A stretch of DNA of 42,443 nt, from IMG/VR virus record IMGVR_UViG_3300027985_000176, positions 1 through 42,443 of that record; one strand, written 5' to 3'. Shown here piece after piece: positions 1,192 to 30,351 of this stretch. The stretch is from a virus. Every line of letters starts with the position of its first letter. Positions within the stretch are counted from its first letter, which is position 1. The position numbers and the translations under genes were made by a program. The notes under the pieces are model-generated. The model made no database searches, was not told the DNA's origin, and was given only the letters and a program-made list of their open reading frames with translations.

Positions 1192-1596
1192 ATGTTTGAA
1201 GTCAACGCAATTTTCGCGTCAAACCCCAGCTTCTGTTTCTTGCAATGCGCGTTTGCCAACTCAGCCCGCTTGTACACGTATAAAGCGCTTGGAGAGTTTG
1301 CAGAAGGCGACAAAGTGCTGGTCGACAGCCCAAGTCAGGGCCTGGTCGTAGTTAGTGTGGTCAAGGTGCTTAAGCCTACGCAAGTAGACCTGCAGCCTAC
1401 GCAGTTTGAATACAAGTGGGTAGTCCAAAAAGTAGACTTCACGCACTTCAATAGTCTGGTAGAGCTGGAAGCAGAAATGCGCGCTAAGATTACTAAGACC
1501 AAGATTGAAAAAGAGCAGCAAAAGCTTATTGAGCAGTTACATGATACACTGCCTGAAGAGCAAGTCCAAGAACTGACAAAGCTGGTGCGGCTATGA
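1192..1596 (+). CDS. Early protein of unknown function (134 aa)
   Basis: I do not recognise this 134-aa protein securely. The N-terminal 80 residues look beta-rich, with a turn EGDKVLVDSP (about 38-47) followed by alternating hydrophobics. The C-terminal half (about 85-130) is helical and charged, with many Lys/Glu, and may form a coiled coil. The first half vaguely recalls the small beta-barrel at the N-terminus of PriA (YTYKAL...GDKVLV), but I would not name it on that. An AAGGA motif lies about 10 bases before the ATG. The stop overlaps the polymerase start as ATGA, so the two are translationally coupled, which suggests a replisome-related role. Confidence 0.65.
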   Translation: MFEVNAIFASNPSFCFLQCAFANSARLYTYKALGEFAEGDKVLVDSPSQGLVVVSVVKVLKPTQVDLQPTQFEYKWVVQKVDFTHFNSLVELEAEMRAKITKTKIEKEQQKLIEQLHDTLPEEQVQELTKLVRL

Positions 1597-3263
1597 AATA
1601 CATCTGCACAACGGACCTTGCCGCAGCATTTGATGGGCTTGACACAAGCAAGCCCATCTTCTGCGACACAGAAACTATCGGTCTATATGGGCGCATCCGA
1701 CTGGTGCAGATTTACCAGGAAGGGCTGGAGCATGTGTGCTTAGTGGAATGGCCTTGCCCTATGACGTTAGCTGCGTATCTGGACAAATACCATTCCGTGT
1801 GGCAAAATGCGCATTACGACGTAACAACTGTTCAAGCGCAAACTACCACCCGCTGGTGCCCTCAGCACTTTGATGACACCTTTTTGCTAGGCCGATTAGC
1901 TTTGCCGCGCTTGGAAAGCTTTTCACTAGACTCTATGATGGCCCACGTGCTAGGCTTTGACCCGTACGCTAAGCAGGGGCTGGACAAGAAAGTTCTGCAA
2001 AAGTCCGACTGGAGCAAAGCAGTGCTGTCTGACGCGCAGCTGGCTTATGCGGCCACAGATGTATGGTATTTGCCGCAAGTATACAGTGCAGTTAAACAAT
2101 GCCGCACCCGTGCTAACTACTTGCTAGATATGCATACGCTGCGGCACTGTTTAGACTTTCAGTGGAACGGCTTGCCGGTAGACATCACAAGACTGCAAGC
2201 ATTGCGAGAAGAGCAGCAAGCTATAGTGCGCGAGGCTAACTTACCAATCAACGTCAATTCATGGAAGCAAGTCCGGCCTTTCATCGGCGAAAATGAGTCT
2301 GACGACTTAGCTTTAGCCCGCTTCTCACACGCGGGTAATGAGAAAGCAGCAGCAGTACGTAAAGTACGCAAAGCGCTTAAAATGCTGTCATTCTTAGAAA
2401 AGTTTGACAATATGGAAGAGCGTATTTATGGTAAGTTTAAGCCTACGGCTAAGTCAGGCCGACTCACTTCAGACGATCAAAATCTGCAGCAATTGCCACG
2501 TAAAGCCAAGTGCTGCTTCGGTTATACTGAAGGGGCAGGCAAAGTAATAGTCTTTGCTGACTTTGCTCAGTTAGAGCTACGCACAATCTGCGCCATCGTA
2601 GATTGCAAGCTAATGGCTACAAAGTTCTATGAAGGCGAAGACCTGCACGGGTTTACAGCGTCCATGCTATTTGGACCAGACTGGACTAAAGACCAGCGCC
2701 AAATGACGAAGACATATAACTTTAACTTGCTGTACGGCGGAGGCATCAACATGGTGCTAACAATCCTGCTCAAGGCAGCAGATATGGTTGTGCCCGAGCA
2801 TGAGGCTAATAGAGCGCGTAGCCGGTGGCGTAATCTGTGGCGAGAAATCTACGCCTGGCAGCAAGCAGGCATACATAAGTGGCAGCACGGTAAGCTAGGT
2901 AAGACACCGCTTGGCCGCGAATACTCAGCTGACATGATGACCGACTTCTTGAACATCGAGAATCAAGGTGCCGGCGCTGAAGTAGCGTGCTTAGCTTTGC
3001 ACTATTTGTACGAAGAGCTTAAGCCATACGAAGCAAAGCTAATGAACTTTGTGCATGACTCGTATCTTATTGAGTGCGAAGACGATCCAGAAGTATACGT
3101 CCCAGTGGCTAAAGCATTGGCTAAAGCGATGAAAGACGCTTGGACCGAAGTTAGCAAGTTCTTTAAGATTCACGACATCCCAATGCCAGTAGAAGTTAAG
3201 GTCGGCTACAATTGGGGTGATATTGAAGCTAGTAAAAATATCCTATGGGAAGCAAAACTATGA
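1593..3263 (+). CDS. Family A DNA polymerase with 3'-5' exonuclease domain
   Basis: This 556-aa replicative polymerase is of Pol I/T7 type. The proofreading exonuclease shows D25-x-E27, D76 (NAHYD) and Y152xxxD156. The polymerase domain shows motif A (D323, in a DFAQLELR block), motif B (R369, K373, F377, Y381, then GG) and motif C (H488-D489-S490). The position matching E. coli Phe762 is Phe (F377), a residue associated in the literature with virulent phages. Motif C reads HDS instead of the usual HDE, while the essential Asp is kept. There is no 5'-nuclease domain, as in other phage Pol A enzymes. Four-base ATGA overlaps couple it to the genes on both sides. Confidence 0.96.
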   Translation: MKYICTTDLAAAFDGLDTSKPIFCDTETIGLYGRIRLVQIYQEGLEHVCLVEWPCPMTLAAYLDKYHSVWQNAHYDVTTVQAQTTTRWCPQHFDDTFLLGRLALPRLESFSLDSMMAHVLGFDPYAKQGLDKKVLQKSDWSKAVLSDAQLAYAATDVWYLPQVYSAVKQCRTRANYLLDMHTLRHCLDFQWNGLPVDITRLQALREEQQAIVREANLPINVNSWKQVRPFIGENESDDLALARFSHAGNEKAAAVRKVRKALKMLSFLEKFDNMEERIYGKFKPTAKSGRLTSDDQNLQQLPRKAKCCFGYTEGAGKVIVFADFAQLELRTICAIVDCKLMATKFYEGEDLHGFTASMLFGPDWTKDQRQMTKTYNFNLLYGGGINMVLTILLKAADMVVPEHEANRARSRWRNLWREIYAWQQAGIHKWQHGKLGKTPLGREYSADMMTDFLNIENQGAGAEVACLALHYLYEELKPYEAKLMNFVHDSYLIECEDDPEVYVPVAKALAKAMKDAWTEVSKFFKIHDIPMPVEVKVGYNWGDIEASKNILWEAKL

Positions 3264-4072
3264 GATACTTTGAGCACCAGTACTGTCAGTTAGTAGAAAT
3301 GATTATAGACCATGGCGAGCATCGGCAGACTCGTAACGCGTCTACACGCAGCATTTTCGGGCAAATGCTAGATGTATACGTAGGGCAGGAGTTGTTCCCG
3401 CTAATCACAGGTCGACGCATGTATCCTAACGGCGTCTTTGGTGAGTTAGCTGCAATGCTGCGCCGACCGACTCATGTAGAAGACTTCAAGAAGTGGGGTT
3501 GTAATTACTGGGACTCTTGGGGTGACAGCGACGGCTTTATCAACGTGGACTACGGCAACGCTTGGTTCGACTTTAATGGCGTAGACCAAATTGCCGAGCT
3601 AAAGCACAACCTGCAGCGCAACCCTACTAACCGTCGTATGATGATTAGCGGATGGCGCCCAGACCGGTTGAACGATCTTAGCCTGCCCTGCTGTCATTAC
3701 AACTATCAGTTCTATGTTACGGCAGATAAGCAGCTGCACATGCTGTGGTCACAACGCTCTGTAGACATGATGGTAGGTCTGCCCAGCGATATTGTGTTTG
3801 CTGCTGCCTGGTTGATTGCTATTGCTAATGAGTTCGGGCTAATTCCAGGCAAGATTAGCTTTGCTCTAGGCGATTGTCACATTTACGAGCAGCATGTAGA
3901 CGGTGCTATGCGCTACTTAGACCAAGCACATTCATTGTCTAACGCAGATAGCGAAGTAGCGTATCGCTACATGGCTCCGGCCGGTGCAGACTTTTGCACA
4001 TTTGACCCACAGAACTTAGTGTTGTCTTTGCACAATGCTATGCCCTCAATCCGATTTGACCTGGTGGTATAA
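3260..4072 (+). CDS. Thymidylate-synthase-family pyrimidine transferase with Asp at the base-selecting position
   Basis: This 270-aa protein has the thymidylate synthase fold. Visible are the nucleophile Cys145 (LPCCH), the phosphate-site R166-S167 with D169, and the pair H207/Y209 (GDCHIY). The residue that discriminates uracil from cytosine, Asn177 in E. coli ThyA (LPFN), is Asp177 here (LPSD). In T4 dCMP hydroxymethylase the aligned residue is also Asp. The enzyme may thus act on dCMP, as a hydroxymethylase or methylase, rather than on dUMP (inference). The ATG at 3260 overlaps the polymerase stop (ATGA) and has GGGAAG upstream, so it is preferred over 3245. The two neighbours downstream are MazG-like and deaminase genes, a nucleotide-pool cluster. 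The family is certain; the substrate is not. Confidence 0.9.
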   Translation: MRYFEHQYCQLVEMIIDHGEHRQTRNASTRSIFGQMLDVYVGQELFPLITGRRMYPNGVFGELAAMLRRPTHVEDFKKWGCNYWDSWGDSDGFINVDYGNAWFDFNGVDQIAELKHNLQRNPTNRRMMISGWRPDRLNDLSLPCCHYNYQFYVTADKQLHMLWSQRSVDMMVGLPSDIVFAAAWLIAIANEFGLIPGKISFALGDCHIYEQHVDGAMRYLDQAHSLSNADSEVAYRYMAPAGADFCTFDPQNLVLSLHNAMPSIRFDLVV

Positions 4073-4073
4073 C

Positions 4074-4676
4074 ATGAAAGTTACTGACTACAATGAATTT
4101 GCCGAAGCTGTAAGTAAGTGGAACGAGGCTCGCTACGAGCGTGAGTATAACCACGAGTTAACAGTTAAGCTGTTAGAAGAAGAGCTAGCAGAAGCAGAAG
4201 AGGCATTTGCTATCTTGCTGGAAAAAGGTACGGTAGAAGCAGCTGCGCATGTGCAAAAAGAAATTGCAGATGTACTGTTTGTAGTAGAAGGTGCCGTGTG
4301 GAAAGCAGAGCCAGATAGTTTGAACGAATGGCAAGACTATGCGCTGCAAGAGCTGCAAATTCTATGCACATTGGATCTTTCTGGTATTGGCCTAATGCAG
4401 CTTGCAATGGCAGAGTTTAGAGTTACTAAGAACGTTAGTGCTCTAGCAGGGCGCATGGCATTCTTTGGGGCGTACGCGCTAGAAGAATGCGGTGTAGAGT
4501 CTAAAGAGCACATGTATGAGGTGCTTAATGCCGTGTGTATTAGCAACGCGTCTAAGCCTGTAGTCAAGACAGCATCTAATGTTAAAGCTAATGCCGGTGA
4601 CAAGGGCCCGTTGTTTGTAAAAGCGGAGCCTATCATTGAGGCCTTAATGACAAGAGGGCAGGGCTATGTCCAGTGA
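4074..4676 (+). CDS. MazG-like nucleotide pyrophosphohydrolase
   Basis: This 200-aa protein carries the all-alpha NTP pyrophosphohydrolase signature: E36-E37-xx-E40 followed by E63-xx-D66, which coordinate Mg2+ and the triphosphate. Near the C-terminus is a VLNAVCISNASK stretch similar to the N-x-SK element of phage MazG-like proteins. It would hydrolyse a (d)NTP to the monophosphate and PPi. Its place directly after the TS-fold gene suggests that it makes a monophosphate substrate or removes a canonical dNTP from the pool, like T4 gp56 (inference). The ATG at 4074 follows the previous stop by one base. The 3' end overlaps the next gene by 11 bases. The class is secure; which nucleotide it cleaves is unknown. 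Confidence 0.85.
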   Translation: MKVTDYNEFAEAVSKWNEARYEREYNHELTVKLLEEELAEAEEAFAILLEKGTVEAAAHVQKEIADVLFVVEGAVWKAEPDSLNEWQDYALQELQILCTLDLSGIGLMQLAMAEFRVTKNVSALAGRMAFFGAYALEECGVESKEHMYEVLNAVCISNASKPVVKTASNVKANAGDKGPLFVKAEPIIEALMTRGQGYVQ

Positions 4677-5235
4677 AATAGTAAAATTTGTGCTTGGTGA
4701 AGCAGCTAAGTCGAATGTAGAAAAACGCAAGGTTGGCGCTATAGTTGTTGGCGCAGACGGTCGCATTATTGCACGCGGGCACAACACAATAGATGGGCCC
4801 CATGCAGAAGTTGCAGCGCTACAAGACATGGCAGTTTCTGATGAATACAGCACACGTCCGTTGACGATGTACATCAGTCACCCTCCATGCCCAGCTTGCG
4901 CCGAAAGCATTATGTCGGCAGGAATTAGTAAAGTGGAAATAGTAGAGCAGTTTATGAAGTTCGATGGTGATAAGCTGCGCTATGACCTTGTGCCGCCTTC
5001 GGCAGTCAAGGCTCTAGCAGAAGCGCTAACCTTCGGCGCACGTAAGTACAAGCCCAATAACTGGCGCAATGTGCCGCAAGAAGAGCTCAACCGTTACGTA
5101 GCAGCAGCTATGCGGCACTTTGAGGCTCATCGCAGCGGTGAATACTTTGATACGGACAGTGGCCTGCCACACTTGGCCCATTGTCTCACAAACATCGCGT
5201 TTTTGATCGAATTGGACAAAAATTTAAGGCCTTAA
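4666..5235 (+). CDS. Fusion: cytidine/deoxycytidylate deaminase-like domain plus dATP/dGTP diphosphohydrolase-like domain
   Basis: The 189-aa protein has two parts. Residues 1-93 are a compact zinc-dependent deaminase with H46-A47-E48 and P74-C75-xx-C78, the Zn ligands and proton shuttle of the CDA/dCMP deaminase superfamily. Residues 97-186 match the phage dGTP_diPhyd_N type (PF18909): a start FDGDKLRYDLVPP, then FGARKY..NNWR, a RHFEAH helix and a GLPHLAH helix. The deaminase half is much shorter than a typical dCMP deaminase, and I see no allosteric site. The single continuous frame argues for a true fusion rather than two genes. It overlaps the MazG-like gene by 11 bases. Both activities act on the dNTP pool; the exact substrates are inferred. 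Confidence 0.8.
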   Translation: MSSEIVKFVLGEAAKSNVEKRKVGAIVVGADGRIIARGHNTIDGPHAEVAALQDMAVSDEYSTRPLTMYISHPPCPACAESIMSAGISKVEIVEQFMKFDGDKLRYDLVPPSAVKALAEALTFGARKYKPNNWRNVPQEELNRYVAAAMRHFEAHRSGEYFDTDSGLPHLAHCLTNIAFLIELDKNLRP

Positions 5236-5253
5236 CGGGCTTTGAACGGCCCC

Positions 5254-5283
5254 GGCCTATATAACCCTATAGGCCTAATTTTG
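5254..5283 (+). promoter_or_regulatory. Palindromic GGCCTATA element before the exonuclease gene
   Basis: GGCCTATA (5254-5261) and TATAGGCC (5268-5275) form an inverted repeat in the 81-base gap, followed by GGCCTAATTTTG (5272-5283). A near copy, GGCCTAAATTTTG, is at 38580-38592, and GGCCTATAAT recurs at 31134-31143 in the divergent promoter. This suggests a phage-specific regulatory element or internal promoter. The preceding stop codon lies in the palindrome TTAAGGCCTTAA (5224-5235). Confidence 0.45.
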
Positions 5284-5316
5284 AAATTGACCACGGCTAA
5301 TTTTGGAGCTAAATTT

Positions 5317-6120
5317 ATGGCCATCAAATTGCTTAACACTGGCATTCGTATCCGTCCATCGGCCATTGACACATTCTATGGCTGTGCCTACCAGTGGGGC
5401 AAAACTTTCCTGGAAGGTGTAACAACAATCCCGTCAGCACGTGCGGCCCGCGGCACTGCTCTGCACAAGGCCGCTGAAGTACTGTGGACCGACGCAATGC
5501 AAGCAGGTGAAGTTGATGCTAACCTTAGCAAGATGACCGACGCCGCAGTGCAAACGTTTCAAGAAGAAGTAAAGACCACCGGCATCGTATTTGACGAGGG
5601 TGAAACAGAAGGTAAGATGGTTGCAGAAATTGTCAAAGGCACGCAAGCCTTCATTGAAGACATTGTGCCGTTCTGTGACATTCCAGATGGTGTAGAGCAG
5701 TTCTACAAGGTAGACATTCAGCACCCAATTGTATCTGAGCTCGGTGGCACCTTAGACTATATTGCTGGCGGTGTCATTGCCGATTTGAAAACTTCTAGCC
5801 GTAAGCCAGTGACTAGCAAGTACAAGACGCAGCAAAGCGTATACAAGTACCTGGCTCAGGCCAATGGCCGTGAAATTACTGAGATGCAGATCCAGAGCAT
5901 CATCATGAAGAGCACACCTGAAGGCGCGATCTTGCCAATTGACACCGATGTTAACCAGGCTAAAGCACTGGTGAACTCTATGCTGGATACGCTAGAGCTT
6001 GTAGCTAAAGATGTTGCGCCAATTGAGACTATTTTGCGCGGCAATCCTGGCTATATGTTCTGCTCTCCTAAGTACTGCTCGCAGTACGAAGTCTGCCCAT
6101 TTGTTAAGGGCCGTCTGTGA
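5317..6120 (+). CDS. Cas4/RecB-like Fe-S PD-(D/E)XK exonuclease
   Basis: This 267-aa nuclease belongs to the PDDEXK_1/Cas4 group. It has H50 in GTALHKAAE, D147 (LDYIAGG), the D156-L-K158 catalytic pair and a QQSVYKY helix (172-178). One cysteine near the N-terminus (C23) and three near the C-terminus (C249, C254, C260) match the split four-cysteine cluster of Cas4/AddB nucleases, so a 4Fe-4S cluster is likely. It may resect DNA ends in phage recombination or degrade host DNA. The ATG at 5317 is chosen over 5242 because TTTTGGAGCT precedes it, and the upstream extension reads through the palindromic element. The stop overlaps the next start (GTGA). Confidence 0.88.
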   Translation: MAIKLLNTGIRIRPSAIDTFYGCAYQWGKTFLEGVTTIPSARAARGTALHKAAEVLWTDAMQAGEVDANLSKMTDAAVQTFQEEVKTTGIVFDEGETEGKMVAEIVKGTQAFIEDIVPFCDIPDGVEQFYKVDIQHPIVSELGGTLDYIAGGVIADLKTSSRKPVTSKYKTQQSVYKYLAQANGREITEMQIQSIIMKSTPEGAILPIDTDVNQAKALVNSMLDTLELVAKDVAPIETILRGNPGYMFCSPKYCSQYEVCPFVKGRL

Positions 6121-6320
6121 CCTCGGCGCAAGCCGTGTTACATGTGCTGCGCACCCATGGTCTTACTAAGTACAGACTTAGTAAGATTGTGGGCGCAGCC
6201 TCTCCTTCGTCTGTAGACCAATGGCTACGCGGCAGCTGTATGGGGCCTGCATTTAGAACCGCGTTTTATAACTCGTTCAAGGTGAAAGTATGCGACCGCG
6301 CGACTATCAAGAAGAACTAA
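6117..6320 (+). CDS. Small helix-turn-helix protein (67 aa)
   Basis: The gene starts with GTG in a GTGA overlap with the exonuclease stop and ends 31 bases inside the helicase gene, so it is embedded in the operon. Residues 12-40 (THGLTKYRLSKIVG...VDQWLRG) have the spacing of a Cro/C1-type helix-turn-helix, and the rest is short and basic. It could be a DNA-binding regulator or a helicase accessory. No wing or dimerisation domain is visible. The overlaps on both sides make a real gene likely; the function stays at the level of DNA binding. Confidence 0.6.
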   Translation: MTSAQAVLHVLRTHGLTKYRLSKIVGAASPSSVDQWLRGSCMGPAFRTAFYNSFKVKVCDRATIKKN

Positions 6321-7477
6321 GCACGCAAGCTATTGCCATACTCAAGCAATACGGCATTGTGTATCTGGCTATGGAAGAGCGCACAGGGAAGACGCTAACA
6401 GCAATTAGGACGGCAGAAAAAAGCCCAGCTAAGACTGTGCTGGTTGTAACAAAGAAAGCAGCAGTTAAAGGTTGGGCCGATACTCTAGGTGCATATAAGC
6501 CTACTATAGCATTTACTGTGTCCACTTACGGTAGTTTGCACAAAGTAGTCGGCAAGTTCGACCTAGTAATTTGCGATGAAGCCCACAACTACATATCTGG
6601 CTATCCTAAAGCATCTAGCACGCACAAGAAGTTGCGGCCATTCACTTACCGCAGCCCCGTGATCTATTTGAGCGCCACGCCTCATGCGCAAGGCTATCAA
6701 ATGTTGTTTAATCAGTTTAGCCTGACAAAGTATAGCCCATGGGCAGAGTACCACAATTTCTATAAATGGTTCGCCGATTACGGTAAGCCCTTCTCTATAG
6801 AGATAAACGGCTTTGATGTTGCCCAGTACACTAGAGTGCACGAAGACAAAGTGCGCCAGGATGTCGCTCATTTATTCATAACTAAGACCAGGGCAGAGCT
6901 CGGGTTTGAGCACGAGCCAGAGGATAAGCTGCACTACATTCAGCTAAGTCAGGTAACCAAGGAGGTTTATAACTTCTTGCTAAAGAAGAAGTGGGTAGAG
7001 TTTAAGGCAGGTAAACTAGTGTGTGAGTCTATGTCAAAGCTGCGCTATGCCCTGCACATGTTAGAAGGCGGCACAATGAAGCTAGACTCTGGTGCTGTTA
7101 CGCTGGCTAACACAGAAAAAGTAGACTACATTATGCAGCACTGGGGAGACAGCCCAGAACTTGTCATAATGTACAACTATGTGCAAGAGGAGCTAAAGCT
7201 TAAGGAGCACTTTAAGCACGCTTTAATACTGCAGGCAACTAGATATGCAGAAGGCGTAGACCTGCACAAGTACAAGCACTTAGTGGTTTATAGTCAAGAC
7301 TTCTCAACAGCTAGGCACACGCAACGGCGTGCACGCCAATGTAACCTGCATCGTAATGAAGCTATTACAGTGCACTTTTTGCTTGTAAGCAAAGCAGTTA
7401 GTGAGCAAGTATATAAGTGCGTTTCACGCAACAAAAAGAACTTTGTAGACTCAGTATTCAAGGAGACATCGCTATGA
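6290..7477 (+). CDS. SF2 DNA helicase (DEAH-box, SNF2/RAD3-like)
   Basis: This 395-aa superfamily 2 helicase has Walker A EERTGKT (G33-K34-T35), the Walker B box DEAH (96-99) and motif III SATP (128-131). The C-terminal RecA domain ends in an arginine-rich motif VI (HTQRRARQ) near residues 343-350. It is compact, with no accessory domain, like phage SNF2/UvsW-type helicases that remodel branched intermediates. The start overlaps the HTH gene, and the next gene's ATG overlaps its stop (ATGA). Between an exonuclease, a ligase and a VRR-NUC nuclease it probably works in recombination-dependent replication or repair (context inference). Confidence 0.92.
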   Translation: MRPRDYQEELSTQAIAILKQYGIVYLAMEERTGKTLTAIRTAEKSPAKTVLVVTKKAAVKGWADTLGAYKPTIAFTVSTYGSLHKVVGKFDLVICDEAHNYISGYPKASSTHKKLRPFTYRSPVIYLSATPHAQGYQMLFNQFSLTKYSPWAEYHNFYKWFADYGKPFSIEINGFDVAQYTRVHEDKVRQDVAHLFITKTRAELGFEHEPEDKLHYIQLSQVTKEVYNFLLKKKWVEFKAGKLVCESMSKLRYALHMLEGGTMKLDSGAVTLANTEKVDYIMQHWGDSPELVIMYNYVQEELKLKEHFKHALILQATRYAEGVDLHKYKHLVVYSQDFSTARHTQRRARQCNLHRNEAITVHFLLVSKAVSEQVYKCVSRNKKNFVDSVFKETSL

Positions 7478-8328
7478 AAAAGCCCATGCTAGCTTACTCT
7501 AAGACACCAAGCTTAGCAGAAATACAGTATCCTGTGATTGTATCGCCTAAGCTTGATGGCATCCGCTGCATTACTGCAGGCGGCGTACCATACAGCCGCA
7601 ATCATAAAGTGATACCTAACAAGCACATCCAGTCTATCATAAAGGACCTAGACATTCACGGCCTAGATGGTGAGCTAATGCTAGATGGAGATTTCAGCGC
7701 AGTATATTCTGGAATAATGTCAGAGCAAGGCACACCCGCTTTCTTCTACGCTGTGTTTGATATGTGGGATGCTACTGCGTCATTTGGCGCCAGATACGCC
7801 TTGGCCAAAGAATTCGTGCAGCACTGCAACTCGCAGTATGTGCGACTAGTAGAACATACACTAGTTGAAACTGCGGAAGAGCTAGCAGCGTTATGGGCAG
7901 AGTACGAAGCACAAGGCTATGAAGGAGCTATTGTACGTGCCATCCACGGTCCGTACAAAGAGGGCCGATCTACGCTAAAAGAAGGCTACATGATTAAGCT
8001 AAAAACCTTCAACGACGACGAAGCAGAGGTCGTTGGATTTGAAGAGCTAATGCACAATGACAATGAGCCAACTATCGATGCGCTTGGACGGCAAGTGCGG
8101 TCTAAAGAAACTGCGGGATTAGTACCGGCGGGTGTATTGGGCGCGCTAATTGTGCAGTGGCAAGGCAAGACCTTTAAGTTAGGTACAGGCTTTAATGCAG
8201 AACAGCGCGCGCAATACTGGAATAACAGGAATGCCTTACTCGGAGCTAAAGTCACGTTTAAGTACCAAGAAGTTTCTAGCTACGGCATTCCTCGCTTTCC
8301 TGTGTTCAAAGGCTTCCGCGATGAATGA
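7474..8328 (+). CDS. ATP-dependent DNA ligase
   Basis: This 284-aa ligase is of minimal phage type. Motif I is K26-L-D28-G29-IR, with K26 the adenylated nucleophile. Motif III-like ELMLDG lies near residue 69, motif IV EGAIVR near 151-156, and motif V IKLK near 172-175. A compact OB-fold C-terminus follows (about 185-284), ending FPVFKGFR. It would seal nicks on the lagging strand and in repair intermediates. The ATG at 7474 has a strong AAGGAG 9 bases upstream and sits in a four-base overlap with the helicase stop; the in-frame start at 7417 lies deep inside the helicase gene and is rejected. The end overlaps the VRR-NUC start by 8 bases. Confidence 0.93.
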   Translation: MKKPMLAYSKTPSLAEIQYPVIVSPKLDGIRCITAGGVPYSRNHKVIPNKHIQSIIKDLDIHGLDGELMLDGDFSAVYSGIMSEQGTPAFFYAVFDMWDATASFGARYALAKEFVQHCNSQYVRLVEHTLVETAEELAALWAEYEAQGYEGAIVRAIHGPYKEGRSTLKEGYMIKLKTFNDDEAEVVGFEELMHNDNEPTIDALGRQVRSKETAGLVPAGVLGALIVQWQGKTFKLGTGFNAEQRAQYWNNRNALLGAKVTFKYQEVSSYGIPRFPVFKGFRDE

Positions 8329-8742: not shown

Positions 8743-11700
8743 ACTTTCTCTGTGCCTTGCGCTACTGCAACAAACCCTTCTTGCTTAAGCGCCCAATCCA
8801 TTGCCTTTTTATCCGCTGGGTTAATGCCATACTTAGCTGCTAGCGTATTTACTTGCTGCAGTGTGGCAATACGGTGCATTGGAATGACCTGGCTTGGAGT
8901 GCCGGAGCCCTTCAAGCTAAGTGTATTGGAGTCGCCCCACAATTTGATTTTAGCAGCCATAGGGTCCTTCTGTGTAGCAGTCTGACGAGCCGCAGCTTGC
9001 TGCATCTGCACAATGCTAGGGACAACGTCAACATCCGCACCTGCTAAGTCCGCCAGCTCTTTGGAAGTCTTAGCGTTAAGCGGATTTTCTAGCAAGTCTG
9101 CCGTCTTCATGATCAACGCCAATGCACGATTCTGCTCTCCGGGCGCAAGCCTACGGACATAGTTAAACACCGAGCTAGCGAACGCGTAATGCAGTCGCAC
9201 AACTGGGTCAGTTGTCAAATAGCTCTGCTCTTTAGGTATTACAATGTTGCCGGTATGCCTGGCCAGAGCTACATCATTCTTAAACACCTCGCCCATCTTA
9301 ATCAGCGCGGCTTGCATGCGCCGTGCGTCTTTAGTTGTGAACGGCATTTTGCTAAGCTCATCTGCCAGCAGCGGAAAGTGCGTAGCTCGCATGCCTTCAC
9401 CCACACCTGTCGTGTACTTCTCAGCTAAAGCTTTAATAGCTGAGCCTTCCACCTTTTCTCGCGCTTGCTGAGGCAGTATTTTCAGCACATCAGAGAAAGT
9501 CTCGTCTGAGGCAGACATGTACCGCGTAATTGCGCGCACTGCGCTGTCTGTGTCAAGTCCTGGTCTACGCAGAGCTCTAGCCAGCACATTACGCTCTAGC
9601 TGCTTCATTTCTGCATACTTGGCTCTAGCCGCAGCGTACTGTGCTTTCCATTGCTGCGGAGAGTCAAATACTACGTCTGCGCCCTGGTCAATTGCAGTGT
9701 CAATTTTAGTAAGCACGTCATTGAAGATCTTGAGGTCAGTGGCACGCTTCATGCCGGAGCCAAACTTGAACTCATTTACTAGCTGCCGCAGTTCAAGCAA
9801 GTCCGCAAATGTGCGAGCGTCAGACCGACTGCGAATTACGTGCGCACGACGCAAGAATCGCTCTACCGCAGGAGCGTCTACGATCTCTTTCTCCATTGCT
9901 TCTAGCGCTGGTTCAATACCTAGCTCGTTAAAGTTGAAAGTAAACTGCGTCGTACGCGGAGCAGATGCAGCCTGCTCTTTAACAGCTTGATAGAACGCTT
10001 TGACGTCTGTAGTGTAGTTAGTCAGGTCTTCTTGCAACAAGCGAGCCATCTGGTCATCTGCTAACTCGTCTGCACTGCGCAGTACTTCTTTAGCTCTGGC
10101 ATCAATACTAGCGGATACTGCGCGACTAGCTTGTGGGTCTACTGCAGACACCTGGCGCATAAGGTCCTCTGCTCCTGGCTTGGTTAAAGCCAAAGCAGCT
10201 ATGCGCTGTTCTTGCGTGTTGCCAGGCAGCTCCGTTACTTTTAACAGGCCCTGACGCATTGCCTCCAACTCGTCATCGGATACGAAGAATAGCCGCTTGA
10301 GCTCTTCATACTCTCGGCCATTGAGCAGTCTGTCTTTTAGTTGGCCCAGGCTCTTAGCACCAGCACCAAGTCCTTTAGCGATAGGCCAAGCAATAACGTC
10401 GCCAATAACACTAGCTTGACCAGCACTAAGTGCTCTGGCTGCTGCGGTTTGCCCTTCTAAGTTCTGCTGCAGCTCAATTGCATTTTCTAGATAGTCTAAC
10501 TGACTGCCTACTGCAGACCCGCCAGACGCGCCCAAGATAGACAATAGCAGAGAGCTACCAGCTTTAACTAAAGGAGGGCCCGGCACGCGGGCACCTGCTG
10601 TAGCACCAGTGATGCCGCCTGCGATTGCGCCGCTAATCTCGTAGCCTTCACTTCTGATGCTATCGAAGAAGCCAGGAGTCACAAGAGTTTTCTGGCCTTC
10701 ACGGTCCACTACATAAAAGTCGCCATCGTCGGTAAAGGCATTGCCGTAGTCATCGCCAGTAGGAGCTTCCCAGATAAGTGTTAACCCTCTGGCGGCAAAC
10801 TCAGGAATGTCCTTAGCTGCTTCCACAATTTTCTTGCGGCTCTGCATTTGCGCTTCATTAGCTAAGCGCCAGTCTGCTTCATTGCCGAACCACGCACCGG
10901 TGCGAGTAAAGACTGATGTCATGTTAGGGTAGACAGTTTGCAAATTAGCCACAATTTTGTCAATAGGCAAGCCGGCATCGCTAATTAGCTCGGCATAGGC
11001 AGAGCCTTTTTGCTCTTCTACCAGCTTGACACGTGTTTCCGGCGGGACTTCTGTCCATCGGCGGTACCAAGGGCGAGTGTCTTCGCCAGTAGCAATAATG
11101 CGCTGTGCTTCTTCGTACAGGCCTTGCATACGCGCTTGCTCTTTGTCGGACTTAGGCCGTGCCACGCCTTCAGATACCTGAGTTAACATATTACCAATTT
11201 CAGACGCTGGCATACCTAAGTCAGTAGGCGCCATAGCTTGCTGCACAGATGGAGTTAGGGCCAAAGGAGGGCTTTGATGTTCCACTGTCTCGGCTTCACT
11301 TAGCGCAGGCACACTTTGCTCTAGGTACTGCTTGATCTCGTCATCGCTATACCCGTCTTTACGAGCTTCTGCAATTTTATCAGACGCAGCTTTTAGCTCT
11401 TCGTAGTCGTAGCCATTTTGCTCGGCATAAGCGCGGACCTCGTCTTCGCTATAGCCTTCATCAAAAGCAGACCGCGCAGCAAAATATGCGGCGGCGGGCG
11501 AAGCATACAATGTGGCTTTGAATGGCCCAGTGGGTTTAATGACAGCGTACGTAATACCGTCTTTAGTTACTTCTTTAAACTCTGAGTTCGTCTGTTTTGC
11601 GACTTTCTTGGCAGTGTTTAGCACTTCGGTCTCATGCCATTTCTGCACGCCTGCTCCGCGGTTAGCTTTGGCCAAAGCTTCTTTGTTTCCTGATATTGGA

Positions 11701-12548
11701 ATAGCGACTTGTTCTAAGCCTTGATTATAGGCGTCAACAAGCTCGCGCTCAATGCCTTTGCGAAGCCAAGAGTCTTGCCATGGCGACTTAGGCGCACTAT
11801 GGAGTGCGAACTCGCTTAGAAGCTCGTCAGCACTACTAGCTTCGGACACTAGAAAGTCCACCATATGATCAGGCTGCCCTGTCAATTTAGATAGCTCATT
11901 ATACTCTACCTGCAGTAGCTTATTAAGGCGGCTAATCTCCTTAGGGTCTGCAGTAGCGTCTAGTTCGGCCGACAATTCAGCAATAACGTCATACCGGTAC
12001 TTAACCGCAGCTTCTGCTTCTGCGCTAAGCACGCCGTAACCGCTTTGACGCCCCGCCTGGTGCAGATCTGATTGGATCTCCACTAGTACACGGCTTGGAG
12101 TACCGTCAAAGATTTCTGGGGTGTCGACAAAGCGTGTGTGCATCAAATAGTTTTCGGCTGCCTCGTCTGGATAGTGCCCAGACGTGTATCGACTGCCCTG
12201 CTCCGCGCTGCCTCGATTAGAGAAAGTCAGTACCCGTTCTTGATAATTACCTAACGGTCGCTTTGCCGCGGCCCGGATCGACTCAGGAACGTACTCGCTG
12301 TAATCTGTGTCGTCGTTGTACCGGTTAGACTCGCCAAATACATCGCTACGCTGAGATTCAAGCTGAGTCAGTTCTTCTGGTGTGTAGCGCTTACTACGAT
12401 CAATAGGCAACTCGGCATAGCGGAGCTCTTCTGGCTTAACTCCGTGTCTAAGCGCCTCTTTCTCAATGCGCTCTCCAGCAATAGTCGACCCTTCTTTAAG
12501 CCCAGTCTGCAAGAACTTAGCTAGCTTAGATACAATCTGAGCAGTCAT
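8727..12548 (-). CDS. Giant polyvalent virion protein (1273 aa), probable ejected internal protein
   Basis: This is the longest gene of the window and the last of the late operon. About residues 95-345 hold a domain known from phage large polyvalent proteins: a GHYPDEA.NYLMHTRF block, then RVLVEIQSDLHQAGR (matching the EIQSDWGQ signature) and a paired segment near DSWLRKGIERELV. Two short repeats GYSEDEVRAYAEQNG and GYSDDEIKQYLEQS follow (about 365-415). A glycine-rich hydrophobic stretch near 636-680 could insert in a membrane, and the C-terminal half is helical and charged. Size and place next to portal and ejection-type genes suggest an internal protein delivered with the DNA, possibly enzymatic. 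GAGGA lies 10 bases before the ATG. No catalytic residues can be assigned. Confidence 0.75.
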   Translation of the reverse strand: MTAQIVSKLAKFLQTGLKEGSTIAGERIEKEALRHGVKPEELRYAELPIDRSKRYTPEELTQLESQRSDVFGESNRYNDDTDYSEYVPESIRAAAKRPLGNYQERVLTFSNRGSAEQGSRYTSGHYPDEAAENYLMHTRFVDTPEIFDGTPSRVLVEIQSDLHQAGRQSGYGVLSAEAEAAVKYRYDVIAELSAELDATADPKEISRLNKLLQVEYNELSKLTGQPDHMVDFLVSEASSADELLSEFALHSAPKSPWQDSWLRKGIERELVDAYNQGLEQVAIPISGNKEALAKANRGAGVQKWHETEVLNTAKKVAKQTNSEFKEVTKDGITYAVIKPTGPFKATLYASPAAAYFAARSAFDEGYSEDEVRAYAEQNGYDYEELKAASDKIAEARKDGYSDDEIKQYLEQSVPALSEAETVEHQSPPLALTPSVQQAMAPTDLGMPASEIGNMLTQVSEGVARPKSDKEQARMQGLYEEAQRIIATGEDTRPWYRRWTEVPPETRVKLVEEQKGSAYAELISDAGLPIDKIVANLQTVYPNMTSVFTRTGAWFGNEADWRLANEAQMQSRKKIVEAAKDIPEFAARGLTLIWEAPTGDDYGNAFTDDGDFYVVDREGQKTLVTPGFFDSIRSEGYEISGAIAGGITGATAGARVPGPPLVKAGSSLLLSILGASGGSAVGSQLDYLENAIELQQNLEGQTAAARALSAGQASVIGDVIAWPIAKGLGAGAKSLGQLKDRLLNGREYEELKRLFFVSDDELEAMRQGLLKVTELPGNTQEQRIAALALTKPGAEDLMRQVSAVDPQASRAVSASIDARAKEVLRSADELADDQMARLLQEDLTNYTTDVKAFYQAVKEQAASAPRTTQFTFNFNELGIEPALEAMEKEIVDAPAVERFLRRAHVIRSRSDARTFADLLELRQLVNEFKFGSGMKRATDLKIFNDVLTKIDTAIDQGADVVFDSPQQWKAQYAAARAKYAEMKQLERNVLARALRRPGLDTDSAVRAITRYMSASDETFSDVLKILPQQAREKVEGSAIKALAEKYTTGVGEGMRATHFPLLADELSKMPFTTKDARRMQAALIKMGEVFKNDVALARHTGNIVIPKEQSYLTTDPVVRLHYAFASSVFNYVRRLAPGEQNRALALIMKTADLLENPLNAKTSKELADLAGADVDVVPSIVQMQQAAARQTATQKDPMAAKIKLWGDSNTLSLKGSGTPSQVIPMHRIATLQQVNTLAAKYGINPADKKAMDWALKQEGFVAVAQGTEKVRLLK

Positions 12549-19613: not shown

Positions 19614-21563
19614 TTAAGGCGCCGGTTTCATAAGGTTTGCTGTGCGTAGATATGCCATCAGCGTATTTAGTGCTGCTACAACCCCTGGCACATCAGTCGC
19701 TACGCTGTTTGCTAAGTACTCCGCAGGTTTCATTCTCGGCACAAAATACGTCCCGTCACCCGATTCAGTGATGATTGGCACCCAACTTTCATGCGTAACC
19801 GAACTAAGCGCATTAGGGTCTGTCGATTGGTAGATTGCGAAATCTCCAAGAGTAGTATCAAACGATTCCAGCGTGAATGAATTTTCTTCCCCGTCTGACT
19901 CCCACATAACAACGCCATTCGGTGTGTCAACACGCAGAGATTCAGCATCAGTCGGGGCTCCAGCTCCGAATATCAGGTCAAACCTTTGCTGCGAGGCAGT
20001 TCCAACATTCTGCGTGGCTACGCGAATAGGGTAGTTTGTGCCAATCCGCTTTATTTTAGTAGTAGAGAATCCGGGATTTAGCAAGCGAAGCTGGTAGTAA
20101 AACCGTGTTTTGCCTTTTGGTAAGACATTAACGGCAACACCATAAGGGCTTTCAGACTTTTCATACAGCACCCATGATGGGTGGTTAATGTCTGTAACAG
20201 CTTCAGGATCGGTACTAAACCACGTTTCAAATCTCTTGGCCCCCCTATTACCAGCAGAGACACTGGTTAGTGCAGACAAAACAACACTGTCAGGCCAAGA
20301 GTCACACCCAACTGTGGTAATAAGCGGGAAATCATTAGCCTTGTTGTAAAAACCAGCATAAGCCCCATTGAACGTGCCGTACAGGGTTGCATTGAACGGA
20401 AATCCGAGGTTGGCTGTCTGACCAAAAGACTCATGAAATGATGTGCCGTTTATGGCAATATTGCGCAGTCCTAAGAATCCGTCAGCCTGCCCGTTGTTAC
20501 CAAAAACGAACTTAAAGAAAACCTTCCCGTTGGCATAGACGTTGTCGCAATAATCCTCTCTGTTAGGACTGTCGAACAGCACTGAATCTGCGTATAGGCG
20601 CTTAGCATTGCGACCCACTGTTCCTGTGTATGCAGGATGAACACCGTCTGAGATCATCAAATCTACATTGCCAAAATCAATCACACTACGGATTGCTGGA
20701 TTTGGATTACTAAACGGAATGCCATGTTCGCGGCAGAAATCTCTCAGCGCATTGTTATATTGGTTCATGCGACGATCTGTTTCAGCGCGCAGCAATGCAG
20801 CAAACTGGTCTTCCCAAAATGTCGGCCAGACGCCAATAAACATTACATCCCCAACAGCATTTAGCGAGTTGTAGATAGACGTAATGTTTGCAATATAGGC
20901 TGCTACAGAAGTTGCTCCACGTGAATCATTATAACGAATATCGTTAACGCCAATAGCTACAACGTATAAATCTGCGTTGTGCGCAGTTAGTGTCGCCATT
21001 CTGCTAATAATATCTAATGTGGTGTTACCGCCAATGCCTTCGTTAATATACGTGGCGCTAGGGAACTTTTGCTCTAGATAGGTAGTAAACCCTACACCAT
21101 CACCTGTGCCAGCTTTGCCTTGCTCAGTAATTGAATCGCCTACCCAAACTACAGTTTGCCCTTTGATACTAGCTTCTTCTAGTCGGCGGGCAAAAGCGGC
21201 TTTATTGGGAGACGCTAATCCTGTGAGCCTGCGCAAAGCTTCAGGCAAAGTTTCGTCTGCATAGGCGATTAACTGCGACCCTTCAGCTGGATCCGCTAGT
21301 GCAGCCAGCGCCGTATCTGCCACTTCGACCCAACTGGTGCCATTGAATGCGTAAGTGTACTCGTACCCGCTTTCAATGCGCTTTGCAAATTTGAACTTAT
21401 CCGTATCTACAGCTAAGAGTTCAGCTTCTGAACCCACAATTTTGAACAGTGCTACTTTAGTAATAGGCAAGTCAGTACCGTTACGGTTCTGCATTTCCGT
21501 GCCCGTACCTAGCAAAAGATCTTCTTCGCCTGCTAACTGCTTGACTAATACTTTAGTAGTCAT
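19614..21563 (-). CDS. Tail spike with SGNH/GDSL esterase domain
   Basis: In this 649-aa protein, residues 1-130 form an N-terminal attachment module that resembles the start of the spike encoded at 21886-23787 (EED..LG..T..Q.R.GT.. and the NGTSWVEV block). Residues 135-325 are an SGNH hydrolase with S144 in VGDSIT, G179, N207 in GVND, and D306/H309 in DGVHP, the full catalytic set. The C-terminal part is beta-rich and probably binds the receptor. The enzyme likely removes O-acyl groups from a capsular or O-antigen polysaccharide. The ATG at 21563 has TTGAGG upstream; the 21578 start lacks one. Confidence 0.87.
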   Translation of the reverse strand: MTTKVLVKQLAGEEDLLLGTGTEMQNRNGTDLPITKVALFKIVGSEAELLAVDTDKFKFAKRIESGYEYTYAFNGTSWVEVADTALAALADPAEGSQLIAYADETLPEALRRLTGLASPNKAAFARRLEEASIKGQTVVWVGDSITEQGKAGTGDGVGFTTYLEQKFPSATYINEGIGGNTTLDIISRMATLTAHNADLYVVAIGVNDIRYNDSRGATSVAAYIANITSIYNSLNAVGDVMFIGVWPTFWEDQFAALLRAETDRRMNQYNNALRDFCREHGIPFSNPNPAIRSVIDFGNVDLMISDGVHPAYTGTVGRNAKRLYADSVLFDSPNREDYCDNVYANGKVFFKFVFGNNGQADGFLGLRNIAINGTSFHESFGQTANLGFPFNATLYGTFNGAYAGFYNKANDFPLITTVGCDSWPDSVVLSALTSVSAGNRGAKRFETWFSTDPEAVTDINHPSWVLYEKSESPYGVAVNVLPKGKTRFYYQLRLLNPGFSTTKIKRIGTNYPIRVATQNVGTASQQRFDLIFGAGAPTDAESLRVDTPNGVVMWESDGEENSFTLESFDTTLGDFAIYQSTDPNALSSVTHESWVPIITESGDGTYFVPRMKPAEYLANSVATDVPGVVAALNTLMAYLRTANLMKPAP

Positions 21564-21570
21564 GTTAACC

Positions 21571-21870
21571 TCAATCATCTGCCCGTTTTGGAATACGAGC
21601 TAGTTGCAACTTTATTTCGTTAGTGTTTTCCGCTACGTGGTCCACCTTAGCAGTCAACGGGCCTAGCACTTCACGCAGAATATCGCGCACCTCGCGCTCA
21701 GTCATCAGCTCTGTTTCTACTACGACTAAACGTTGTGCAATTGCCGCGTCTCGTTCTGCGCATTCCTTGGCGACCAAATCGAGCTTCTTCTTGTCCTGTT
21801 TATAGTTGAACAGCAAAATGCTGCCTATAAACCCAACAAGCCCTGTGATTATATCCTGCATAGATAGCAT
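21571..21870 (-). CDS. Small membrane-anchored coiled-coil protein
   Basis: This 99-aa protein has one hydrophobic segment (IITGLVGFIGSILLF, about 7-21), then a basic patch and a long charged helix (25-95) with heptads. It lies between the two spike genes. A GGAG motif is 6 bases before the ATG. Such one-TM plus cytoplasmic-helix proteins in phage late operons include holin-like and antiholin-like proteins, so it is a second candidate for a lysis role besides the 27508-27642 gene. A structural or chaperone role for the spikes is equally possible. I do not recognise the family. Confidence 0.65.
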   Translation of the reverse strand: MLSMQDIITGLVGFIGSILLFNYKQDKKKLDLVAKECAERDAAIAQRLVVVETELMTEREVRDILREVLGPLTAKVDHVAENTNEIKLQLARIPKRADD

Positions 21871-29862: not shown

Positions 29863-30351
29863 CTAGTCTACAATAGCCCAATCATCTGCCAACAGGTCAG
29901 ATTGACTTGCTACCCATGGCACTACATCGCCATTAACTGTTTTCATGTCAATATGCGAACGATAGTTAATAGTAGTGCCCTCTGGATAGACGCCCATCAA
30001 TGGCGGACGATTCACCTGGAAAGTGGACCCTTGCACTAAGAAGAGGAACATGCCACGGCCGTTCCACCCTGCGCGAGTCACTTTAGCCCCATTTTTGAGC
30101 GCTTCAAGAGCTAAGCCGAACGACAGCCCATCAACCACGCGATACGCTTTGTCGAATACTGCCTTAGGTGACCAGCTAATATACCCAGCGTAGTCTGGGT
30201 GATTCTGCGCTCCTCCATCGTGATACTCGACTAGATAGCCTTCGTCTGCTCCATCCTCGTCATCTGGCAGTTTCCAACCGCGCAGCTCGTTATAAGCTGC
30301 CCTGGTCATTGGTGTGGCAACAATGCGCTTTGCTCCAATATAGTGTTTCAT
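29863..30351 (-). CDS. Tad2-like (DUF2829) protein, candidate anti-Thoeris sponge
   Basis: In this 162-aa protein, residues 76-162 match the DUF2829/Tad2 domain: LSFGLALEALKNGAKVTRAGWNG, then MFLFLVQGS, a DMKTVNGDVVPW strand and the ending SQSDLLADDWAIVD. Tad2 proteins of other phages sequester gcADPR-type signals of the Thoeris defence system. Residues 1-72 are an extra N-terminal unit (TRAAYNELRGW...DEGYLVEYHDGG...SWSPKAVF) that often precedes this domain in phages. The ATG overlaps the scaffold stop (TAATG) with GGAGG upstream. Its place in the late operon rather than an early anti-defence island is unusual. Domain clear, function inferred. Confidence 0.8.
   Translation of the reverse strand: MKHYIGAKRIVATPMTRAAYNELRGWKLPDDEDGADEGYLVEYHDGGAQNHPDYAGYISWSPKAVFDKAYRVVDGLSFGLALEALKNGAKVTRAGWNGRGMFLFLVQGSTFQVNRPPLMGVYPEGTTINYRSHIDMKTVNGDVVPWVASQSDLLADDWAIVD

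Follow-up and report, generated by a model that had tools for sequence, protein, structure and literature searches.

The synthase gene examined here lies in a 42,443-base virus record (IMG/VR IMGVR_UViG_3300027985_000176, positions 1 to 42,443; the whole stretch is referred to as the window), whose source we describe as a small, short-tailed phage (podophage). The open reading frame at 3260-4072 (+) encodes a complete 270-residue protein that matches PF00303 (1.2e-56), and it is the sole gene for a thymidylate synthase (TS) fold in the whole phage record. Its ATG at 3260 overlaps the stop codon of the preceding gene, which encodes a family A DNA polymerase (1593-3263, +; PF00476, 3.2e-33; PF01612, 7.4e-13). 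The list of open reading frames also contains an in-frame ATG at 3245; relatives start at the position equivalent to 3260, where the start is probably better placed, a small correction. AlphaFold2 confidently predicts the TS fold for this protein (mean pLDDT 95.5), and among the PDB matches listed by a fold search with the model, the top ones are canonical synthases (25-29% identity). The nucleophilic cysteine, the phosphate-binding arginines, Asp169, Tyr94 and His207/Tyr209 that characterize the TS superfamily are all present, as judged from PF00303, the alignment and the model. The closest annotated proteins, all labelled thymidylate synthase, come from Edwardsiella phage KF-1 (53% identity), Pseudoalteromonas phage PH1 (50%), Dickeya phage Amaethon (49%) and Vibrio phage VPMS1 (45%).

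The synthase is part of a replication cluster with the common gene order ssb, DNA polymerase, synthase, MazG-like, deaminase, PD-(D/E)XK nuclease, helicase and ligase, and the gene order of KF-1 and PH1 resembles that of the window. The gene at 4074-4676 (+) encodes a MazG-like all-alpha NTP pyrophosphohydrolase, predicted to convert dCTP to dCMP, that matches phrog_671 (2.4e-7), carries an EExxE...ExxD motif and is distantly related to proteins that match PF01503; its AlphaFold2 model is all-helical, and a fold search with it gave no clear or usable PDB match. At 4666-5235 (+), a zinc deaminase domain with HAE and PCxxC motifs (PF00383, 2.2e-15) is fused to a dATP/dGTP-diphosphohydrolase-like domain (PF18909, 1.1e-30). 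The same fusion occurs in KF-1; a stand-alone deaminase plus a DUF6378 protein take its place in other relatives. Pfam matches to a PD-(D/E)XK nuclease, an SNF2-type helicase and a DNA ligase (5242-8328, +) complete the conserved cluster, in the same order as in KF-1, MW202665 and PH1. A pyrimidine dimer DNA glycosylase is encoded at the start of the cluster (73-504, +; PF03013, 1.4e-11). Searches of the window returned no dihydrofolate reductase (DHFR) match over the cut-off and no dNMP kinase match. Among relatives, a dNMP-kinase-like gene adjoins the synthase in L144 and lies near the deaminase in L013, L121, L016 and L154; the L144 gene (8792-9421, +), which immediately follows an Asp177 synthase, is similar to phage deoxynucleoside monophosphate kinases (phrog_139, 2.7e-10), and this record gave no deaminase match.

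Alignment with E. coli ThyA, whose numbering is used below, reveals that the base-selecting Asn177 is replaced by an aspartate in the window synthase (Asp177, motif LPSD; codon 3788-3790, +). Conserved residues include Glu58, Trp80, Trp83 (window Trp87; codon 3518-3520, +), Tyr94, Arg126/127, Leu143 (window Leu142; 3683-3685, +), the catalytic Cys146 and His147 (window Cys145 and His146; 3692-3697, +), Gln165, Arg166, Ser167, Asp169, His207 and Tyr209. This alignment, together with the presence of aspartate in 65 of the 68 relatives located in this gene cluster, confirms the initial annotation, which had read an aspartate at this position with the catalytic residues kept. The Asn177 of canonical dUMP thymidylate synthases is absent from the window and from those 65 relatives, and occurs in the other three (3/68). 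Since the aspartate is so widely shared, and is invariant in a 15-sequence alignment (A2), Asp177 is neither a sequencing error nor a chance event. The exchange has a precedent, as a synthase with Asp in place of Asn at this site is described as becoming a dCMP methylase (Liu and Santi 1992; Hardy and Nalivaika 1992, both as cited in PMC8670742); according to the same account, the L. casei N229D and E. coli N177D enzymes, which combine a canonical pocket with this single substitution, prefer dCMP over dUMP. Those proteins are laboratory mutants, whereas the aspartate of the window is natural and conserved across a clade of phages that have a gene module of their own. In environmental phage DNA, Asp177 synthases are associated with modified-cytosine contigs, and PF00383, PF14437, PF01503 and the DNA ligase families PF14743/PF01068 accompany such contigs or Asp177 synthases (PMC8670742); PF00383, PF14437, PF14743 and PF01068 were all matched in the window by Pfam search.

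Aspartate at position 177 was checked in the synthases of KF-1, PH1 and VPMS1. A scan found relatives in at least 138 viral contigs, and 84,980 bacterial and archaeal genomes held two (one Gammaproteobacteria and one Gracilibacteria assembly). The initial annotation had proposed a phylogeny of TS-fold proteins grouped by residue 177, and a 98-protein tree does recover an Asp177 phage clade (45 rows, 42 with Asp and 3 with Asn at 177; support 100/98), though placed apart from T4 gp42: the window clade adjoins canonical synthases, and the gp42-type enzymes and the phage Xp12 group branch elsewhere. The starred branches of this tree, in which some long branches (SPO1 gp29 and PEi20 gp42) have little placement certainty, force at least five changes at residue 177, which argues that Asp177 has arisen independently several times.

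A second comparison is offered by phage Xp12, in which 5-methylcytosine replaces all cytosine; its relative AXL1 is resistant to most restriction enzymes (PMC9206674). Deamination of 5mdCTP by the Xp12 deaminase yields dTTP (PMC12088426). In this group, represented in our comparisons by AXL1, PaMx28 and RcSimone, a pyrophosphohydrolase, an Asp177 synthase and a deaminase occur together, often with a DHFR (AXL1, PaMx28 and RcSimone-Hastad have their own; none was matched in the window). The window synthase resembles the Xp12-type dCMP methylase (Bosavirus/Pamexvirus group; AXL1 gp63) in having Asp177, adjoining nucleotide pyrophosphohydrolase and deaminase genes, and a full C-terminal tail, and differs from it in sequence (about 24% identity), in lying on a separate branch and in lacking the Asn143/Pro147/Phe83 signature. 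The window and Xp12 deaminases differ in type, the former being shorter. Trp128 of the Xp12 deaminase is kept in the stand-alone deaminases of L002, L139, L153 and L193; a window tryptophan that aligned with it was discounted, as it falls in the fused PF18909 domain.

To predict the product of the window enzyme, its pocket was compared with that of the T4 dCMP hydroxymethylase gp42, in which Asp145 (E. coli 143) activates the water used in hydroxymethylation, Val85 stands in place of Trp83 and there is no C-terminal tail (PMC6400193). The two proteins share the TS fold, Asp at 177 and a nucleophilic cysteine, whereas they are only 20% identical and lie on different branches. In our collected set of gp42-type enzymes, Asp or Glu at 143 together with Thr147 is found in 83/83 and Trp83 in 0/83; the SPO1 dUMP hydroxymethylase (gp29) also has Asp143. 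The window clade instead has Leu143 and His147 in 68/68 and Trp83 in 66/68 members, and it retains the folate-closing C-terminal tail, with a median of 61 residues after Tyr209 compared with 19 in gp42-type enzymes. Leu143 and His147 are likewise present in 152/152 canonical synthases. This agreement with canonical synthases at Leu143, His147, Trp83 and the tail favours hydride transfer, so that 5-methyl-dCMP would be formed. If dCMP is the substrate, the methyl product is thus probably the right one, an argument from the pocket that rests on few assayed enzymes. Xp12 enzymes, taken as methylases, have Asn143/Pro147/Phe83, and Leu143/His147/Trp83 are therefore not required for methylation. Trp80 was considered as a marker of hydroxymethylases and rejected, as T4 gp42 also has this tryptophan. 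The analogy to T4 gp42 drawn in the initial annotation is consequently supported for Asp177 and dCMP recognition and not for the product, to which gp42 is, judged by these residues and the tail, a poor guide; where 5-hydroxymethyl- and 5-methyl-dCMP had both been left open, 5-methyl-dCMP is the better prediction.

Natural variation within the clade bears on both the substrate and the role of the neighbouring genes. Three members of the window clade (L151, L136 and L156), the only reversions known, have returned to Asn177 by three separate changes. No deaminase was found in any of them (whole records of L151 and L136, and a 4.7 kb fragment for L156), compared with 37 of 40 Asp177 records (Fisher p = 0.0016, uncorrected for kinship); an independent-pair test agrees in direction, with only two independent pairs on well-supported branches, too few for significance. 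L151 and L156 are also without the pyrophosphohydrolase. L136 carries a DHFR within its synthase cluster (11364-11891, +; PF00186, 2.8e-37). An L151 reading frame at 8795-9214 looked like a DHFR by eye and was unsupported by Pfam and PHROGs. Among the Asp177 records a DHFR scored over the cut-off in 4 of 40, a count that passes over divergent DHFRs such as that of AXL1, which score below it. The reversion pattern is consistent with switching between two routes: one through cytosine, for which the deaminase is needed, and a plain one from dUMP, for which it is not. Conservation, phylogeny, the module of the Xp12 relatives and these revertants together support two earlier proposals, namely that the enzyme recognizes dCMP and that the MazG-like and deaminase/diphosphohydrolase neighbours fit a modified-cytosine pathway; in our judgement dCMP is likely to be the substrate.

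From the observed fold, residues, conservation, gene cluster, tree and reversions we infer, with moderate confidence, that a dCMP C5-methylase evolved from thymidylate synthase in a clade of KF-1-related podophages and feeds 5-methylcytosine into their DNA; the substrate and product, the modification of the DNA and every flux of the route are predictions. In this scheme the MazG-like enzyme would convert dCTP to dCMP and so supply the methylase, in which Asp177 would recognize and protonate cytosine N3 while Cys145 (window numbering) attacks C6. Methylene-tetrahydrofolate would provide the one-carbon unit, and the methylene would be reduced by the folate hydride, as in thymidylate synthase, to yield 5-methyl-dCMP and dihydrofolate. 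Kinases, in the case of the window from the host, would raise 5-methyl-dCMP to the triphosphate, a step with which the dNMP-kinase-like genes of some relatives agree, and its insertion by the polymerase would blunt cytosine-dependent restriction; virion DNA with modified cytosine is a plausible outcome of the route. The deaminase may supply thymine from 5-methyl-dC nucleotides, from dCMP or from both. Both DHFR and dNMP kinase must be assumed to come from the host, because neither was matched in the window. The scarcity of DHFR over the cut-off may speak against a methylase, which should need one for its dihydrofolate and which often has one in the Xp12 group. The missing dNMP kinase match in the window and the departure of its deaminase from the Xp12 type also count against this reading.

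The main rival that we retain, and consider unlikely, is a dCMP hydroxymethylase, in which water would attack the methylene intermediate to give 5-hydroxymethyl-dCMP and tetrahydrofolate, and hydroxymethylcytosine would enter the DNA. Such an enzyme would share Asp177 with gp42 and would need no DHFR, and the lack of a DHFR over the cut-off in 36/40 Asp177 records, with one present beside the Asn177 enzyme of L136, is what is expected if only the Asn177 enzyme yields dihydrofolate; the dNMP-kinase-like neighbours in some members also agree with it. It is opposed by the lack of Asp143 and Thr147, the retained Trp83 and full tail, the distance from both gp42 and SPO1 gp29 in the tree, and the failure to find a glycosyltransferase among the window reading frames searched. 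Moreover, deamination of hydroxymethyl-dCMP would yield hydroxymethyl-dUMP, not a thymine nucleotide, and the tie to the deaminase would be harder to explain. A methylase might alternatively make 5-methyl-dCMP purely as a thymidylate intermediate, which the deaminase would convert to dTMP, with cytosine in the DNA unmodified. The distribution of the deaminase agrees with this, as the Asn177 revertants that lack it can make dTMP directly, and so does the deamination of 5mdCTP to dTTP in Xp12. We regard it as improbable, however, as in Xp12 the same route accompanies full 5-methylcytosine in the DNA, Asp177 synthases are enriched in modified-cytosine contigs (PMC8670742), and nothing was seen to bar 5-methyl-dCMP from the triphosphate pool. 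An ordinary dUMP thymidylate synthase that tolerates Asp177 would account for the canonical Leu143, His147, Trp83 and tail and for the lack of a second TS-fold gene, but is highly improbable given that in two model enzymes Asp for Asn at this site is reported to change which base is preferred (via PMC8670742), that the aspartate is kept across great divergence, and that a dUMP synthase should pair with a dCMP deaminase, which the Asn177 members lack.

Earlier work has described the Asn/Asp switch and tied it to modified cytosine (PMC8670742), and phages with 5-methylcytosine are known; new here are the KF-1-related clade, the predicted product of its enzyme and the natural revertants. Only a few phages with 5-methylcytosine in place of cytosine are known. 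In the literature that we found, no KF-1 relative is suspected of doing so, and no nucleoside chemistry or restriction data were found for the window phage or any KF-1 relative, nor any functional assay of the KF-1, Amaethon, PH1 and VPMS1 synthases. If the dCMP methylase reading is correct, fully methylated DNA would occur in a group of at least 138 viral contigs, with members cultured on Edwardsiella, Dickeya, Pseudoalteromonas and Vibrio. The effect of a single residue on the wiring of pyrimidine supply could then readily be tested with the naturally occurring Asp/Asn pairs. More tentatively, small podophages may have invented the replacement of cytosine by 5-methylcytosine independently, together with an inverted route to thymidylate (methylation followed by deamination) that is lost whenever residue 177 reverts to asparagine.

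Two further genes lie in the structural part of the window. A Tad2-like (Thoeris anti-defence 2) domain (29863-30351, -; PF11195, 4.6e-25) is encoded within the structural gene block, and a structural-region protein at 19614-21578 (-) contains a GDSL lipase/acylhydrolase domain (PF13472, 4.7e-22) and perhaps acts on surface polysaccharide.
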